Source: an uncultured Bacilli bacterium
Lineage (GTDB): Bacteria; Bacillota_I; Bacilli_A; RF39; UBA660
Direction: 5' to 3'
NCBI GenBank assembly: GCA_944327365.1
Contig: CALVHI010000006.1
Location: forward strand, 1 to 40,104
Length of the DNA stretch: 40,104 nt
Shown: positions 6,518 to 40,018 of the stretch, piece by piece
Layout: the number at the start of each line of letters is the position of its first letter
Position numbering within the stretch: position 1 is the first letter of the stretch
Notes under the pieces: generated by a model
What the model was told of the DNA's origin: nothing
Database searches by the model: none
Seen by the model: only the letters and a program-made list of their open reading frames with translations
Position numbers and translations under genes: made by a program

Positions 6518-7684
6518 ATGAAGAAAAATATTAAGGAAGTTGATAGTAAGGAAGTAAATGAAGTCGTATCTTTAACAAAAAAAATATTAAAGTTACTTTA
6601 TATTGTCATGGTGGTAGCTATTGTTTTATGTGGTACAATCATTTTAAAAAATTTAAATATTTTAAATATTTTACTTACATTCCTTAAAGTATTATCTCCT
6701 TTATTTATTGGCTTTGTTATTGCTTGGCTATTTAATCCAATTGTAAAAAAACTATATCAAAAAGGTATTCCTAGAATTGTGGGAAGTATTTTAGTTTATG
6801 TTATCTTTTTAATATTTATCTATATATTTTTAAGGATTTTAGTTCCAACTTTATATTCACAAATCAATGAACTTATTGCTACTCTTCCTTCTATTTTAGA
6901 TAAGTTTAGCAATTTTGCAGATGATTTAATTAATCAAATTTCTATTAGTGGAATTGATTTAACCGGATTTAAGGAAAATTTATTTAATGGGGCAGGAAGT
7001 TATCTTGTTAACCTCACAAATTCTCTTCCTACTTCTTTAATCGGTATATTAGGAAGTTTAGCATCAGGTATCGGAACGGTTTTAATTAGTTTAGTTATTG
7101 GTTTATATATGCTCTTTGACTTTGATGCTATATCAAAACATTTTCTAAAATTAGTTCCAAATAAAAATAAATATGAAATAGAAGTATTAATAACAGACAT
7201 TGGCAGACAGGTAAGAAAAACAATTAGTGGAACTTTATTAGTAGCATTTATGGTTTTTGTCTGTGATACGATTGGCTTTGCAATAGTAGGGTTAAATGCT
7301 CCATTGTTATTTGGGCTATTTTGTGGTTTAACTGATTTAATTCCATATATTGGTCCATATATTGGTGGAGCTGCAGCAGTAATTGTTGGCTTTAGTCAAG
7401 GAACAATTACGGGAATAGCGGTATTAATTATTTGTATTGTCGTCCAACTTTTAGAAAATTATGTTTTACAACCTGTAGTGATGAGCAAAACGACTCATTT
7501 ACATCCTGTTACCATTATGATTGGTTTATTAATTTTTGCCCATTATTTTGGAATTATTGGTATGATTCTTGCTACTCCATGTATAGCTCTTTTAAAAGTA
7601 ATATTTAAATTTATTGTTAAAAAATATAATTTATTTAAAGATGATGAAGTATTATTAAAAGAAGTACTCAAAGATGATTATTAG
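6518..7684 (+). CDS. AI-2E family transporter
   Basis: A 388-residue multipass membrane protein of the AI-2E/PerM family (PF01594). It has a short basic cytoplasmic N-terminus, two early helix pairs (about 29-75 and 85-112), the long loop with QINELIATLPSIL, and a C-terminal membrane bundle including GLFCGLTDLIPYIGPYIGG and LQPVVMSKTTHLHPVTIMIG, the family's most conserved segment. Members include the TqsA AI-2 exporter and Na+/H+ antiporters, so the substrate is not fixed. Translation is probably coupled to frr: the GAGGG site is inside frr. Its last codons form one arm of a terminator and its stop overlaps that of the reverse-strand regulator. Confidence 0.9.
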   Translation: MKKNIKEVDSKEVNEVVSLTKKILKLLYIVMVVAIVLCGTIILKNLNILNILLTFLKVLSPLFIGFVIAWLFNPIVKKLYQKGIPRIVGSILVYVIFLIFIYIFLRILVPTLYSQINELIATLPSILDKFSNFADDLINQISISGIDLTGFKENLFNGAGSYLVNLTNSLPTSLIGILGSLASGIGTVLISLVIGLYMLFDFDAISKHFLKLVPNKNKYEIEVLITDIGRQVRKTISGTLLVAFMVFVCDTIGFAIVGLNAPLLFGLFCGLTDLIPYIGPYIGGAAAVIVGFSQGTITGIAVLIICIVVQLLENYVLQPVVMSKTTHLHPVTIMIGLLIFAHYFGIIGMILATPCIALLKVIFKFIVKKYNLFKDDEVLLKEVLKDDY

Positions 7685-7699
7685 AGTACTTCTTTTTTT
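7661..7699 (+). terminator. Terminator built into the ends of two convergent genes
   Basis: GAAGTACTC (7661-7669) and its exact complement GAGTACTTC (7684-7692) flank a 14-base loop and are followed by TTTTTTT. The left arm is coding in the AI-2E gene and the right arm is coding in the reverse regulator. On the minus strand the hairpin is followed only by TTTTAAT, so it works best for the plus strand. Confidence 0.85.
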
Positions 7700-8130
7700 A
7701 GTGTTTTTCCACAAATATAGTCTATTGATATATGGAATTTATTGGCAAATAAAAATAAATAATCAGCTTTTAATATATAGGGGTATTTTTCATAGCGAGC
7801 AATAGTTGGAGTAGATAAATGAAATTCTTTAGCTAATTCTTTTTGAGTGACTCGGTTAATTCTTCTAATATATTTTAAACTAAATCTAAGGTACTTATAG
7901 TCAATATCATAAGGGCCAAACTCTTTTAAATTATGACTTAATCCCAATAATGCGTTAAGAGAAATTTTAAAGTAATTACTAAGTTCATTCAATTCTTGAA
8001 TTTTCATTGGCCGGATGCCCGCTTCATAAAGTTTATAGACACTTAAAGTCACTTTTAAACGATGAGCTACTTCTAATTGCGTAAGATCTAATTTTGTTCT
8101 GATTTTAGCAATAAGCATTCCATCTTGCAT
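7681..8130 (-). CDS. Regulator with two tandem XRE-type HTH domains
   Basis: A 149-residue protein with two helix-turn-helix units. The first covers residues about 4-62 (IRTKLDLTQLEVAHRLKVTL, then YKLYEAGIRPM). The second covers about 82-145 (IRRINRVTQKELAKEFHLST, TIARYEKYPYILKADYLFLF). No sensor or membrane domain is visible. It diverges from the C39 exporter gene, so regulation of the bacteriocin locus is the natural inference. The start has AGGAGG 5 bases upstream, but that site lies in a small hairpin (8134-8148). Its stop codon overlaps that of the AI-2E transporter. Confidence 0.82.
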   Translation of the reverse strand: MQDGMLIAKIRTKLDLTQLEVAHRLKVTLSVYKLYEAGIRPMKIQELNELSNYFKISLNALLGLSHNLKEFGPYDIDYKYLRFSLKYIRRINRVTQKELAKEFHLSTPTIARYEKYPYILKADYLFLFANKFHISIDYICGKTLKKEVL

Positions 8131-8133
8131 ACA

Positions 8134-8148
8134 AAACCTCCTTTCGAG
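8134..8148 (-). promoter_or_regulatory. Hairpin over the regulator's ribosome-binding site
   Basis: On the minus strand ACCTC-GAAAG-GAGGT forms a 5-bp stem containing the regulator's AGGAGGT site. It could reduce its translation, or be a DNA dyad bound by the regulator. A TATAAT reads on the minus strand just upstream (about 8155-8160). Confidence 0.4.
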
Positions 8149-8280
8149 GTGTATATTATAATCAAAAAAATTGCAAAATATGTCGAATGGCGTCGCTCCT
8201 TTAAAAAATTGTGCCCATTAGTTTCTAAAATAAAGGAATTTCAGCAAATAATAGTAATAAATAGTAGTGAAGGGAGGAAG

Positions 8281-10338
8281 ATGATGCCTAAGATTGAAGT
8301 AGTAAAACAGCGTGATTTAAAAGACTGCGGAGCATGTTGTATTGAATCAATTTTAAAATACTATGGTGGCTACGTTCCACTTGAAAAAATCAGGGATGAC
8401 ACTTGTACAAATGTAAATGGAACAACAGCTTATCACATTGTAAAAGCATTAGGTACATATGGATTTGATGCGATGGGAGTAAAAGCTGAGACAATTTTGG
8501 ATGAAAACATTTATTTGCCAGCGATTGCTCATGTAGTACTAAAAAATGGTTTACAGCATTTTGTAGTTGTTTTTAAAATTAGTTCTAAATATATTCATTT
8601 AATGGATCCTGCCAAAGGAAAAGTAAAGATGCCTATATCTGAATTTGAAGAAATTTGGGATCAGATACTAATTCTTTCTAGTCCTGGAAGCAACATTTTA
8701 AGATATACCAAAGAACTATCTATTTCCGGCCTTTTTGGAAGACTTTTAGCTAAAAATAAAATTTTGTTTGTTAAAATTATGTTTGTAAATCTTTTACTTA
8801 TGATTTTAACTATTGCAGGAAGTTTTTATTTTCAAGTCAGTATATCGAGTCTACAATCAGGAGGAGAACTAAGATTTATCAAGTTTATAGTAATTCTCTT
8901 TTTTATTATACTTCTTTTCAAGATTATCATAAATTATACTAAAACCTATTACCTCAATTACCTAAATAAGAACCTTGATACGGAATTGTTTTCTCTTTTC
9001 TTAGAGCATATTTTTAAACTCCCTTTAAAATTTATTCAAAATCGTACAACTGGAGAGATTGTGACTAGAATTGATGAATTAAGTGATACGAAGAGCTTAT
9101 TTTCAGAAATATTTTCCACTTTTATCCTTAATATGATTTTGATATTTGGGGCGATAGTAACTCTCTTTTTAATAAATAGCAAGTTATTTTTTCTTCTTTG
9201 TTTAATAATTGTTATTTATATTATCATAGGAGTTATCTTTAGCAAAGGAATCTATCGTAAAATAAAGGATACCATTGATGCAACAACAGATTTTAATACT
9301 GCTTTGATTGAAAACGTAGACATGAATTATAGTATTAAAAATTTAAATTTAGTTCGTGAATTTATTTATCGAATAGAAAATAAACTTATTTTAATGCTAA
9401 AAAGTAATTTTTCGTTTGTAAGTGTATTAAATGTGATCGAATTTTTTAAAAACTTTATCTACGAGATTGGCTTATTTGCCATTACAACATTAGGACTTTA
9501 TTTAATATATCAAGAAGAGTTAGAAATTTTAAGTTTAGTCACCTTTAATAGTATTATCATCTATCTATTCAATCCTGCTAAAGAATTAGTTGATTTAATA
9601 CCAAAGTATAATTATTTAAAAGCCTCTTTTAATAAATTAAGCGAATTTTTAGCAACTGAAATTGAAAAAGAACAGGGGGGATTAAGCACGTTAAAGGATA
9701 GTGATATTAAAATAAAAGATTTAACGTATTCTTATGATTTATATAATAAGATCATTGATAAAGTAAGTTTCCATGTAAAAAGCAATGATAAAGTTTTACT
9801 TAGTGGTCCATCTGGAAGTGGTAAAAGTACTATTTGTAAACTCATTTATCGAAGTTTAGGCACTTATTCTGGAAATATTGAATTTAATAATACGAGTGAA
9901 TGTGATTATAGCTTAAAAGCGATCAGAGAAAATATTCTATATGTAGGCCAAAACGAAAAACTTTTTACAGGGACAATTCGTGAAAATATTATATGCTTTC
10001 GAAACATCAGTGATGAAGAGTTCATTCAAGTTTGTAAAATCTGTCAATTAGAAGAAATTGTATCCAAAAGGCCAAATCGCTATAATACAGTAATTAATGC
10101 ATCGCTAAATAATTTAAGTGGAGGAGAAAAACAAAGAATTATCCTAGCAAGAGCAATGCTTAAAAAGGCTAAAATAATTATTTTAGATGAAGCATTAAGT
10201 GAAGTAAATGTTGATTTGGAAAAAAGGATTTTAGATGATTTATTCATATATTATAAAAACAGCACATTAATTTATGTTACTCATAAAAATGTAGATGATA
10301 AATTTGAAAATATCATTCGTTTAGCTCCTTCATGTTAG
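8281..10338 (+). CDS. Peptidase-containing ABC transporter (C39, bacteriocin type)
   Basis: A 685-residue exporter that cleaves double-glycine leaders and exports the peptide. The N-terminal C39 peptidase carries Cys16 in KDCGACC, His93 in LQHFVVV and Asp109 in MDPAKGK. Six membrane helices span about residues 160-430. The nucleotide-binding domain has Walker A GPSGSGKST (about 509), signature LSGGEKQR (about 613), Walker B IIILDEA (about 632) and H-loop YVTHKN. ATG 8281 follows GGGAGG and is exactly where C39 homology begins; open frame extends upstream to 8125 without a site. The stop overlaps the next gene by 7 bases, implying coupling. Three GG-leader peptides lie downstream. Confidence 0.95.
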   Translation: MMPKIEVVKQRDLKDCGACCIESILKYYGGYVPLEKIRDDTCTNVNGTTAYHIVKALGTYGFDAMGVKAETILDENIYLPAIAHVVLKNGLQHFVVVFKISSKYIHLMDPAKGKVKMPISEFEEIWDQILILSSPGSNILRYTKELSISGLFGRLLAKNKILFVKIMFVNLLLMILTIAGSFYFQVSISSLQSGGELRFIKFIVILFFIILLFKIIINYTKTYYLNYLNKNLDTELFSLFLEHIFKLPLKFIQNRTTGEIVTRIDELSDTKSLFSEIFSTFILNMILIFGAIVTLFLINSKLFFLLCLIIVIYIIIGVIFSKGIYRKIKDTIDATTDFNTALIENVDMNYSIKNLNLVREFIYRIENKLILMLKSNFSFVSVLNVIEFFKNFIYEIGLFAITTLGLYLIYQEELEILSLVTFNSIIIYLFNPAKELVDLIPKYNYLKASFNKLSEFLATEIEKEQGGLSTLKDSDIKIKDLTYSYDLYNKIIDKVSFHVKSNDKVLLSGPSGSGKSTICKLIYRSLGTYSGNIEFNNTSECDYSLKAIRENILYVGQNEKLFTGTIRENIICFRNISDEEFIQVCKICQLEEIVSKRPNRYNTVINASLNNLSGGEKQRIILARAMLKKAKIIILDEALSEVNVDLEKRILDDLFIYYKNSTLIYVTHKNVDDKFENIIRLAPSC

Positions 10339-10742
10339 ATTTACTTAATAATAAACAGGCCTTTTTAAAAGAGAAGCCTAAAATTGGATTTATCGTTACT
10401 ATAGTGATGACAATAATATTATTGATGCTGTTAATATATATATGCCAAAGAGAAGTCTATGATAACTATCAAACCAAAGGGATAGTGAGTTGTAATGAAA
10501 AATGTACAATAACAACTGTCATACCTTCCAATTTGAATTTTGAGCAAGTAGTAGTAAATAATAAAAATATTCACTATGAAATTATTGGGAAAGAACTGAG
10601 AGTAGATGAAAAAAATTATCTTTCTTATTATGATTTAACTTTATCTACTTCTCTATCTTTTTCAAATAATGAAATTGTTGATTTAAATTTTTATTACAAT
10701 AAACAAAGAATTATAACGAAAATAAAAGACAAAATGTTTTAA
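10332..10742 (+). CDS. One-TM accessory protein of the bacteriocin locus
   Basis: A 136-residue protein with one membrane helix (about 19-37, TIVMTIILLMLLIYI) and an outer domain of about 95 residues, apparently beta-rich. It sits where an HlyD-like adaptor normally accompanies a C39 exporter; the outer start (YQTKGIVSCNEKCTITTVIP) vaguely recalls the first strand of such adaptors, but it is far too short to have their coiled coil and barrel. An immunity role is also possible. It overlaps the exporter stop (ATG 10332, TAG 10336-10338). Two cysteines (in SCNEKC) could form an outer disulfide. No close family recognised. Confidence 0.7.
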   Translation: MLDLLNNKQAFLKEKPKIGFIVTIVMTIILLMLLIYICQREVYDNYQTKGIVSCNEKCTITTVIPSNLNFEQVVVNNKNIHYEIIGKELRVDEKNYLSYYDLTLSTSLSFSNNEIVDLNFYYNKQRIITKIKDKMF

Positions 10743-10756
10743 AGGAGGAATAAAAT

Positions 10757-10888
10757 ATGCAAAGAATGGAAAGTGAAGAAATGTTAAAATGTAGCGGAGG
10801 CGGTTTGCTTGGTGTACTTGCTAATTTTTTTATTAGCGTTATATCATTGACCAAAGCTATATTATCATTAAAGAATTTGAGAGGTTAA
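10757..10888 (+). CDS. Double-glycine bacteriocin-like peptide 1
   Basis: A 43-codon gene. The leader MQRMESEEMLKCSGG ends in Gly-Gly and follows the double-glycine pattern, with hydrophobic residues at -12, -7 and -4. The predicted mature part is 28 residues (GLLGVLANFFISVISL, then TKAILSLKNLRG), strongly hydrophobic with a cationic C-terminus and no cysteine. AAAGGAGG precedes the ATG at the usual distance. It is the first of three such genes behind the C39 exporter, the enzyme class that cleaves such leaders. Antimicrobial or signalling activity is inference. Confidence 0.82.
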   Translation: MQRMESEEMLKCSGGGLLGVLANFFISVISLTKAILSLKNLRG

Positions 10889-10889
10889 A

Positions 10890-11027
10890 ATGAAGACATT
10901 AGACGATAGAACATTAACTGAAGTGAGTGGAGGTATATCAGCTACATCTATCATAGGTGGGATTGCAGTAGCAATTGCCTTCTTTGCTTCTGTTATTTAT
11001 GGATTCTTTTTTTCAAAGGAGGGATAA
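10890..11027 (+). CDS. Double-glycine bacteriocin-like peptide 2
   Basis: A 45-residue product starting one base after the first peptide's stop. The leader MKTLDDRTLTEVSGG has Leu at -12 and -7, Val at -4 and the Gly-Gly cleavage site. The predicted mature peptide is 30 residues (ISATSIIGGIAVAIAFFASV, then IYGFFFSKEG): one hydrophobic helix with small-residue faces (GGIAVAIA) and almost no charge. GAGAGG upstream is the ribosome-binding site. The hydrophobic, neutral character differs from peptides 1 and 3, hinting at different roles in a multi-component agent. Confidence 0.85.
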   Translation: MKTLDDRTLTEVSGGISATSIIGGIAVAIAFFASVIYGFFFSKEG

Positions 11028-11028
11028 T

Positions 11029-11175
11029 ATGAAATTAAATGATCATGAATTAATTTTAGTATCCGGTGGAGCGATTAGTGGGACTTTAATTAACGCTTTT
11101 GCAAGACTATTAGATGTAGTAATAGAAATTGGAAAAATGATTGGAGCATCAATTCGCCGTTGGATAAATAATTAA
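11029..11175 (+). CDS. Double-glycine bacteriocin-like peptide 3
   Basis: A 48-residue product. The leader MKLNDHELILVSGG is the best match of the three to the double-glycine consensus (Leu -12, Glu-Leu at -8/-7, Val -4). The mature part is 34 residues (AISGTLINAFARLLDVVIEI, then GKMIGASIRRWINN), an amphipathic cationic helix with a GxxxG motif (GKMIG), as in two-peptide class IIb bacteriocins, and a single Trp near the C-terminus. Its AAAGGAGG site lies inside the end of peptide 2. A terminator overlaps its stop, closing the operon. Confidence 0.87.
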   Translation: MKLNDHELILVSGGAISGTLINAFARLLDVVIEIGKMIGASIRRWINN

Positions 11176-11198
11176 AAAGAGTTGTAAAGCTCTTTTTA
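11174..11198 (+). terminator. Terminator of the bacteriocin operon
   Basis: AAAAAGAG (11174-11181), an 8-base loop, CTCTTTTT (11190-11197), starting within the peptide 3 stop codon. Confidence 0.8.
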
Positions 11199-11216
11199 AT
11201 TTTAAGAAAAGATCTC

Positions 11217-11548: not shown

Positions 11549-11734
11549 ATGACAAAAGTAGTAGTTAAAAATGGAGATGTTGATGGTGCTTTGAGAAAAT
11601 TTAAAACCAAAGTAGCTCGTAGTGGTGTCCCTTCAGAATTAAAAAAAAGAAAGCATTATGAAAAACCAGGCGTTCGTAGAAGAAACGAAAAGAAAGAACA
11701 AATTAAAAATGCTAGAAAGCACAGAAATTATTAA
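11549..11734 (+). CDS. rpsU: 30S ribosomal protein S21
   Basis: A 61-residue, highly basic protein with the S21 signature: KVVVKNGDVDGALRKFKTKV, then RSGVPSELKKRKHYEKPGVR, then a Lys/Arg-rich helix. It sits on the 30S platform near the 3' end of 16S rRNA. GGGAGG lies 7 bases before the ATG. It is followed after 11 bases by yqeY, the standard Firmicute pairing. Confidence 0.97.
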   Translation: MTKVVVKNGDVDGALRKFKTKVARSGVPSELKKRKHYEKPGVRRRNEKKEQIKNARKHRNY

Positions 11735-11745
11735 GGTGATAATAT

Positions 11746-12180
11746 ATGAATAATAAAATAGCAGAAGATTTAAAATTAGCAATGAAAAATGGTGATAAAT
11801 TTAAATTATCTGTATTAAGAATGCTCAAAAGCGCTTTGCAATTAGATTCTATTAGTAAAAAACACGGACTAAGTGATGATGAAGTATTGATAGTTATTAA
11901 AAAACAAGTAAAAACTCGCAAAGATTCAATTGAAGAGTTTAAGAAATATGGAAAAGATGAAGAAGTAGCTAAATTAGGACAAGAAATAGAAATTTTAAAT
12001 GCTTATTTACCAGAAGAGATGAGTGAAGAAGAAATTAGTAAAGTAATTGATGATGTATTTAATGAATTAAAACCAACTAGCATGAAAGAGATGGGCATTG
12101 TAATGAAAAAATTAAACGAAAGAATTATAAATGCTGATATGTCTTTCGTAAGTAGACTTGTAAAGGAAAGACTAAGTTAG
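11746..12180 (+). CDS. yqeY: GatB/YqeY domain protein
   Basis: A 144-residue protein of the YqeY family, which shares the helical tail of GatB (the tRNA-dependent amidotransferase subunit). It contains the conserved LKLAMKNGDKFKLSVLRMLK, then KQVKTRKDSIEEFKKYGKDE, AYLPEEMSEEEI and KEMGIVMKKL. The family may bind tRNA, but its role is not established. It forms an operon with rpsU. Its stop codon lies inside the terminator hairpin at 12167-12190. Confidence 0.95.
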   Translation: MNNKIAEDLKLAMKNGDKFKLSVLRMLKSALQLDSISKKHGLSDDEVLIVIKKQVKTRKDSIEEFKKYGKDEEVAKLGQEIEILNAYLPEEMSEEEISKVIDDVFNELKPTSMKEMGIVMKKLNERIINADMSFVSRLVKERLS

Positions 12181-38693: not shown

Positions 38694-39188
38694 TTAACTA
38701 AACTTAACTGTAATATATTTATCCGTTTCATACATAGATTGAACCATACGAATAATGTTATTGGCTAAAGTTGCATCATGGGTTGTACTGGCAATCGTAA
38801 TGGTTATGTTATTGCCATTGATTTGAACAACACAATCAAGAGCGTATTCATCTTGAATTAATTTAACAATTGCTTCTTTTTCACTTTCATTTTGATTTAA
38901 ACTTTGCAGTTGCTCATAAGCATCATTTTTCTCTTGTAATGTTGCCACATCACTTAATAAAATATTTTGCAATTCTTCCATTTGAGCAAGCAATTCTTCT
39001 TCATCAGCCACTTTTAAAGCTACTAAAGTATCATTTTCTTCACTTATCACCACTTCTGCTTTATCATCGATATTTTTACTTACATTTAAAGTAGAAAGTG
39101 TATCATCAGACATTGTAAGATAATAAATGCTTAATACCATAATTAAAGAAAATAAAGTTAAAAACCATAAATTTTGTTTATTAATCAT
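38694..39188 (-). CDS. spoIIIAH: SpoIIIAH-like stage III sporulation protein
   Basis: A 164-residue protein, shorter than the Bacillus one. INKQNLWFLTLFSLIMVLSI then YYL is the characteristic start and single membrane helix; an acidic linker and helix (about 60-105) lead to the ring-building domain (about 110-164; LDCVVQINGNNITITIAS, TTHDATLANNIIRMVQ) related to YscJ/FliF. SpoIIIAH of the mother cell meets SpoIIQ of the forespore across the septum. It is normally the last gene of the spoIIIAA-AH operon, but here it stands alone. AGGAGG lies 6 bases before the ATG. Confidence 0.9.
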   Translation of the reverse strand: MINKQNLWFLTLFSLIMVLSIYYLTMSDDTLSTLNVSKNIDDKAEVVISEENDTLVALKVADEEELLAQMEELQNILLSDVATLQEKNDAYEQLQSLNQNESEKEAIVKLIQDEYALDCVVQINGNNITITIASTTHDATLANNIIRMVQSMYETDKYITVKFS

Positions 39189-39258: not shown

Positions 39259-39267
39259 TGATATAAT
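39259..39267 (+). promoter_or_regulatory. Extended -10 before the CmpB-like gene
   Basis: TGATATAAT (39259-39267). Transcription would begin only about 10 bases before the start codon's ribosome-binding region. Confidence 0.4.
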
Positions 39268-39283
39268 GGTAAAGAGGGATGGT

Positions 39284-40018
39284 ATGAAAGAAATAATAGT
39301 ATATGGTAGCTTAATTTTTTATCTATGTTCCTTTATTGGCTATTTACTAGAAGTTCTTTGGTGTTATTTAGCTTCTAAAAAGATTGTAAATAGAGGGTTT
39401 TTGTGTGGACCAGTCATACCGATTTATGGGTTTGGAGCGGTTTTGATTTTGTTTTGCTTATTAAGATATTATGAAGATCCCGTTGTTGTTTTTGTATTTG
39501 GAATGATTATAACAAGTGCTCTTGAATATTTTACATCTTTTTTACTTGAAAAAATATTTCATAATAAATGGTGGGATTATAGTAATCGAAAATATAATAT
39601 TAATGGTCGAGTTTGTTTAAAAAATTCTTTTGCCTTTGGAATATTATCTTTATTAATAATATATGTAATAACACCAGGATTTTATTTTTTATTTAGTTTA
39701 TTTTCTTTTAAAGTTTTAACGATTCTAGCTATTATAATTACGATCCTATTTGTTTTAGACGTTATTTATTCTGTTATCATTGCTTATAATCTTAGAAATA
39801 GAATTATTATTGTTGAAGAATTAAAGAATGAAAAGATAGCCATGATACCAGTTATTTTTGAAAAAAGATTAAAGGAAAGTATTGAAGGATTTAAAGCTTT
39901 TCCATCAAGGCTTTTAAAAGCATTTCCTAACTTAAATAATAATATTTTTGATATGATGAAAAAATATCGAGAAGAAGCTAAGAAAAAGAAAAAGGAATTA
40001 AAGGAAAGAAAAAGATAA
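39284..40018 (+). CDS. CmpB-type (DUF/'ABC transporter type IV') membrane protein
   Basis: A 244-residue protein of the ABC_trans_CmpB family (PF06541), despite its name not a proven transporter. SFIGYLLEVLWCYLASKKIV, NRGFLCGPVIPIYGFGAVL and SALEYFTSFLLEKIFHNKWW, then DYSNRKYNINGRVCLKNSF, are the family motifs. It has about five membrane helices; the last 60 residues are basic and cytoplasmic. ATG 39284 has GAGGG upstream. It diverges from spoIIIAH. Confidence 0.85.
   Translation: MKEIIVYGSLIFYLCSFIGYLLEVLWCYLASKKIVNRGFLCGPVIPIYGFGAVLILFCLLRYYEDPVVVFVFGMIITSALEYFTSFLLEKIFHNKWWDYSNRKYNINGRVCLKNSFAFGILSLLIIYVITPGFYFLFSLFSFKVLTILAIIITILFVLDVIYSVIIAYNLRNRIIIVEELKNEKIAMIPVIFEKRLKESIEGFKAFPSRLLKAFPNLNNNIFDMMKKYREEAKKKKKELKERKR

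Follow-up and report, generated by a model that had tools for sequence, protein, structure and literature searches.

The window (the whole stretch of DNA that was analysed, 40,104 nucleotides from an uncultured Bacilli bacterium) carries a compact export locus that probably encodes an exported, membrane-active bacteriocin of the two-peptide class IIb type, made of a hydrophobic peptide A and a cationic peptide B and joined by a third peptide, pep1, at the level of the genus. GxxxG motifs, matches to class IIb profiles and an exporter that resembles bacteriocin-PCAT and ComA transporters are found together, and a two-peptide bacteriocin is therefore the reading favoured here from sequence comparison. 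The genes and their motifs, their conservation and co-occurrence across a large family, and the coupled loss of two cysteines can be read directly from the genomes. The ancestral, family-wide unit is the pair A+B (pep2 and pep3 in the window), and pep1 is a genus-level addition, similar additions having been made in a few other lineages.

A sequence-only reading of this DNA had placed at 7681-11198 a regulator, an exporter, an accessory protein with one transmembrane (TM) helix and three small genes with double-glycine (GG) leaders, and all of these are present there (Table 1). The exporter domains and the three GG ORFs support the reading of a C39 export locus that is dedicated to three peptides. 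The proposed mature lengths of 28, 30 and 34 residues and the shared leader pattern fit all three ORFs, positions -4, -7 and -12 of each leader being hydrophobic if Cys is counted as hydrophobic. The closing terminator was also recovered, by eye, as a hairpin with a T-run; it is missing from the list given by a consensus terminator scan, its G-C pairs being too few.

Table 1. Features of the locus in the window.
Feature	Position	Strand	Description	Basis
Divergent transcriptional regulator	7681..8130	-	149 aa, two Cro/C1-type HTH	two HTH_3 matches (Pfam)
C39-peptidase ABC exporter	8281..10338; start ATG 8281 or 8284	+	C39 + TM + NBD; GG-leader processing	Pfam
Accessory protein	10332..10742	+	136 aa, one TM helix + outer domain	AF2; NF045999 matches of relatives
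pep1	10757..10888	+	GG precursor 43 aa; mature GLLGVLANFFISVISLTKAILSLKNLRG, 28 aa, +3	
pep2 (peptide A)	10890..11027	+	GG precursor 45 aa; mature 30 aa, hydrophobic, SxxxG motif	
pep3 (peptide B)	11029..11175	+	GG precursor 48 aa; mature 34 aa, cationic, GxxxG	
Probable terminator	~11174..11203	+	A/T-rich hairpin + T-run	by eye, 3' of pep3

The three peptide genes are the only top-scoring GG ORFs in the 40-kb window, and no ORF of this kind arose in 40 Markov shuffles. The locus was looked for in related genomes, where all three peptides are conserved. Against the locus G218, from a species of the window's genus whose exporter is 80% identical to the window's, dN/dS is 0.32 for pep1, 0.20 for pep2 and 0.25 for pep3, with 0.11 for the exporter and 0.17 for the accessory protein. 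To judge from these ratios, purifying selection acts on the conserved pep1, pep2 and pep3; the idea that they are random frames is ruled out by the conservation in relatives together with dN/dS.

The exporter contains the Pfam domains Peptidase_C39, ABC_membrane and ABC_tran, and its C39 residues Gln9, Cys15, His92 and Asp108 are invariant in an alignment of 20 sequences. In a profile search, the nearest solved structures are the bacteriocin transporter PCAT1 (4ry2, E 5e-180) and then ComA (8hf4, E 7e-162), both of which share the domain order of the window exporter over its full length. The peptide profiles, when run against the PDB, pick up nothing more than the leader of the substrate peptide CtA, at weak scores (E 0.2-0.4); the remaining matches are due to chance. 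A homologue of the exporter (E<=1e-40) occurs in 268 of 291 genomes of the window's family, which comprises small-genome Bacilli from gut and rumen.

Local scans, locus by locus, found the C39 exporter with both A and B in 233 of 252 family genomes (A in 240, B in 241), and in several of those lacking the full pair the locus stops at a contig edge. Usually A lies directly upstream of B, as adjacent co-oriented genes. From genus to genus the mature sequences stay conserved, with consensuses of roughly ...FxIGxIDGxxRPLKC for A and ...ISAxxxNAxxR...LGRxxGxAIRRxxxxxxC for B, and with a mean mature charge of +0.9 for A and +2.9 for B. When the B profile was searched against a sample of the whole class, it hit 51 of the 54 family genomes in it; outside the family, this sample yielded no B apart from three leader-only matches in one genus. 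The B-like match in f4 g153 (such genus and family codes are labels of the search tool) was rejected, its similarity being confined to the leader and the first mature residues of a 130-aa protein; an exporter of this type was also missing from the stretch fetched. Three ~800-kb genomes of another family encode a protein of ~130 aa with the GG-type leader MQKLKDNELKDIKGG/AASGALLNGIG... (L302:8039-8431, minus strand; L303:1470-1862, plus strand; L304:8114-8506, minus strand), and no C39 exporter adjoins its gene in the stretches fetched.

A class IIb bacteriocin is built from two dissimilar peptides that bear GxxxG or a motif like it (PMC6382864, PMC8538875), and motifs of the GxxxG type are present in all class IIb bacteriocins that have been characterised (PMC6382864). 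A strict GxxxG is found in 235/240 A and 235/241 B peptides; the window has the GxxxG-like motif SVIYG in pep2 and the GxxxG motif GKMIG in pep3. Profile models agree best for A: among 49 A peptides there are 41 with a match to TIGR03949 (lactobin A/cerein 7B, class IIb) and 31 with one to the lactococcin G-beta family. When scored singly, four of seven A peptides pass the curated cut-off of TIGR03949 (21.9-29.5 bits against 21.5), the window's pep2 falling just under it with 19.3 bits. The B peptides give weak matches to class IIb models, and for the window's pep3 NCBIfam yields nothing at E<=0.1.

The sequence-only reading had taken the locus to be a three-component system. This is borne out in the window's genus, where a third GG peptide occupies the first position in 14/14 loci (in one of which B lies beyond the contig end), but not for the ancestral unit, which has two peptides. 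Since pep1 is in all loci of the genus that were examined and A+B are family-wide, three peptides are a stable trait of this genus on a two-peptide base. In other lineages, third peptides lie between A and B (G290 and G074/G203), and two loci, G045 (L008) and L162, have two A/B pairs, hence four GG peptides, in one operon. The regulator, read earlier as a double-HTH protein facing the other way, has a counterpart in 13/13 genus loci with upstream sequence; when the neighbours of 130 family loci were clustered, it turned up in 3. Among the neighbour clusters it is seen in the window's genus only, and its membership in the ancestral system was rejected.

In the proposed mechanism, each precursor would be cleaved by the C39 domain behind its Gly-Gly, and the mature peptides would then leave through the ABC exporter; the one-TM accessory protein may aid export (or self-protection), while being dispensable in some lineages. 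The hydrophobic A and the cationic B would become helical in a target membrane, where they would pack against each other by way of GxxxG. For most family members, a disulfide would also join the C-terminal Cys of A to that of B, both residues having been lost in the window's clade. Control of the operon would fall to the divergent double-HTH protein.

The disulfide is suggested by a regularity in the cysteines. Most members of the family have one Cys near the C-terminus of A and one near that of B, and in 234 A/B pairs both are present in 230, neither in 4 and one alone in none (Fisher 8e-9, a statistic that ignores relatedness). One judgement in this count was made by hand: in the A of G179 and the second-pair A of G045, the sole Cys falls within the GxxxG region (FCG), and it was not taken for a C-terminal one. 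With the addition of ten genus loci (4 with neither, 6 with both), L162 (two pairs, neither) and L163 (both), the count becomes 237 both, 10 neither and 0 discordant in 247 pairs. On a FastTree tree of the family exporters the trait changes three times, in the window's clade, in genus g46 and in G152, all Cys-less and each with relatives that have both residues. A smaller tree gives four changes, with the Cys-bearing G218 placed inside the window's clade, although a single loss in this clade is not rejected there (p-AU 0.18). A further coupled change separates pair 1 of L162, where both pairs are without the C-terminal Cys, from pair 1 of G045. At least three independent coupled losses, the one in pep2 and pep3 of the window's clade included, are thus indicated by these trees; three such events are too few for a sign test to be significant.

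Because the Cys of A and that of B are kept or lost together, a disulfide between A and B is the simplest reading and is the one that the pattern suggests. Packing through GxxxG would place the two C-termini near each other, provided that the helices run parallel; for plantaricin S there is an antiparallel model (PMC6382864). The failure to find VKOR or DsbA-like families in the genus speaks against the bond. The peptides had been expected to be unmodified, and this stands as regards enzymes, since no lanthionine, radical-SAM or other modification enzyme is found at the locus or among its clustered neighbours; it does not extend to most relatives, in which the C-terminal Cys make a disulfide likely.

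Another possibility, which we regard as rather unlikely, is that these Cys serve in homodimers or some other Cys-dependent modification, and that they disappear together through some common cause, for example the loss of a modifier. One exporter is common to all the peptides and one modifier could be too, the independent losses number only three, and neither the VKOR nor the DsbA-like (Thioredoxin_4) oxidase family was found in 13 genomes of the genus. However, no gene for a modifying enzyme stands out among the neighbours, and the retention of Cys goes by pair rather than by locus: in the operon of G045, one pair retains its two C-terminal Cys while the second pair is without them, so a modifier lost from the whole genome does not explain the coupling.

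A bond between A and B is also part of a wider and tentative proposal, to which we give a distinctly minor share of belief: that the family possesses its own near-universal, disulfide-stapled two-peptide pore-former, a core trait of these small-genome gut Bacilli that perhaps opens neighbouring cells for nutrients which the producers cannot make, and that it was converted to three peptides in the window's genus and became disulfide-free in the window's clade. The distribution of the locus counts against the bacteriocin reading. Bacteriocin loci are usually patchy, and near-universal presence with frequent synteny is unlike them. Here rpsU and yqeY come after the locus in ~50 of the 130 family loci compared, and near-universal presence, being unusual for a bacteriocin, makes a role in signalling or in the core biology of the cell possible.

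As for the surroundings in the window itself, rpsU- and yqeY-like genes lie directly 3' of the locus at 11549-12180, the context common to those ~50 loci. Far from the exporter are, by eye, a SpoIIIAH-like gene (38694-39188) and a gene for a multi-pass membrane protein (39266-40018), whose relatives adjoin the exporter on its upstream side in 27 and ~14 other loci, respectively. An ORF at 205-1242 resembles, by eye, a RhuM/Fic-type fusion (FIDGNKRIAA near its C-terminus).

It is in our view unlikely that A+B is a core membrane factor instead of a classical competitive bacteriocin, whether as a permeabiliser of neighbours that gains nutrients or as a surface complex. The near-universal presence, often in one genomic context, the missing immunity gene and the mature sequences kept across genera would all be in keeping with it. 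RF39 organisms lack the biosynthesis of fatty acids and several further pathways of this kind (PMC6784871), and these gaps would favour it as well, if the family belongs to RF39 as it appears to. Yet the peptides still match class IIb bacteriocin profiles, and some lineages have duplicated pairs or third peptides (G045, L162, G290, G074/G203), as is also seen in bacteriocin loci.

The accessory protein bears on the question of immunity. It has a TM helix at residues 17-39, and its AF2 model (pLDDT 93) consists of this one helix, a six-strand outer domain and a C-terminal helix. A Foldseek search of the PDB gave no match at E<=1e-3; membrane-fusion proteins appear at E 0.07-0.13 among unrelated matches, and the assignment of a solved fold was dropped, the matches being mixed and weak. 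The protein appears to be a remote relative of the mycoplasma MAG1140 family, a homology supported by the 23 of 48 accessory relatives that match NF045999 (best E 8.8e-6); the window's own protein scores 14.2 bits over nearly the full length, below the curated cut-off of 35. The window exporter, similarly, scores 319.7 bits against the Mbov_0121 family, NF045998, below the curated cut-off of 500.

In mycoplasmas, Mbov_0121 and MAG1140 are adjacent, as are the related exporter and accessory genes in the window, even if the window proteins stay below both cut-offs. In 14 mycoplasma-like loci (family f15, L272-L285), the exporter and the MAG1140-type accessory gene are followed by ybeY-, cdd- and era-like genes (named by eye), with no GG peptide within ~1.5 kb of the exporter, whereas GG peptides follow in the window. 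Adjoining GG peptides, expected for the exporter's homologues in the sequence-only reading, are accordingly found within the family and not next to these more distant relatives. The mycoplasma relatives of the two genes raise the question of what those transporters carry.

That the accessory protein is an immunity protein and not a helper in export seems doubtful. It is the sole other gene of the operon, and the proteins that confer immunity in class IIb systems sit in the membrane by one TM segment or more (PMC8538875). This role is countered by the relatives found beside the related exporter in mycoplasma-like genomes, where GG peptides are missing within 1.5 kb, by the outer domain of six strands with its weak likeness to membrane-fusion proteins, and by the ~20 loci that have the exporter, A and B but no detectable accessory gene.

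Finally, the peptides might be secreted signals (pheromones) like ComC/BlpC, which would leave the cell through a ComA-like transporter and be perceived by the population that makes them, but this we consider improbable. GG leaders and a ComA-like exporter would serve such signals, a few A and B members weakly match ComC/BlpC/EntF models, the window's genus has a dedicated upstream regulator, and the locus is single and near-universal. Against this, no pair of histidine kinase and response regulator is found among the conserved neighbours, and the double-HTH regulator, with no obvious sensor domain, is seen in the window's genus only. Pheromones are short, whereas the mature peptides here come in pairs, contain GxxxG and are both long and very hydrophobic; a paired Cys would be unexpected in a pheromone.

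Searches of the literature (mostly non-subscription journals) on RF39 bacteriocins, intermolecular disulfides in two-peptide systems, class II disulfide heterodimers and the mycoplasma gene names gave no description of this system, nor, in the literature searched, of any covalent two-peptide bacteriocin. If the locus is bacteriocin-like, it is near-universal in one large uncultured family of Bacilli rather than scattered among strains, so its role is directly testable. The coupled presence and loss of Cys is what a covalent two-peptide bacteriocin would predict, in a form that is simple to check, and the genus with three conserved peptides provides a natural comparison between Cys-bearing and Cys-free versions.

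The only unmodified three-peptide bacteriocin met in the literature searched is garvicin KS, which is leaderless (PMC6412029). Its three peptides come from consecutive genes, as in the window, but a leaderless multipeptide bacteriocin of this type fails as a model, all three window precursors carrying GG leaders beside a C39 exporter. The likeness is closer to the class IIb systems (lactococcin G, plantaricins EF/JK/S, lactobin A/cerein 7B), with which the locus shares an adjacent pair of GG peptides of ~30-40 mature residues, GxxxG in both peptides and a C39 ABC exporter. Unlike them, it has no dedicated conserved immunity gene among its clustered neighbours, the accessory gene being the sole candidate; it is near-universal in one family, with a third peptide in the window's genus; and each partner bears one conserved C-terminal Cys, the two being jointly kept or lost.
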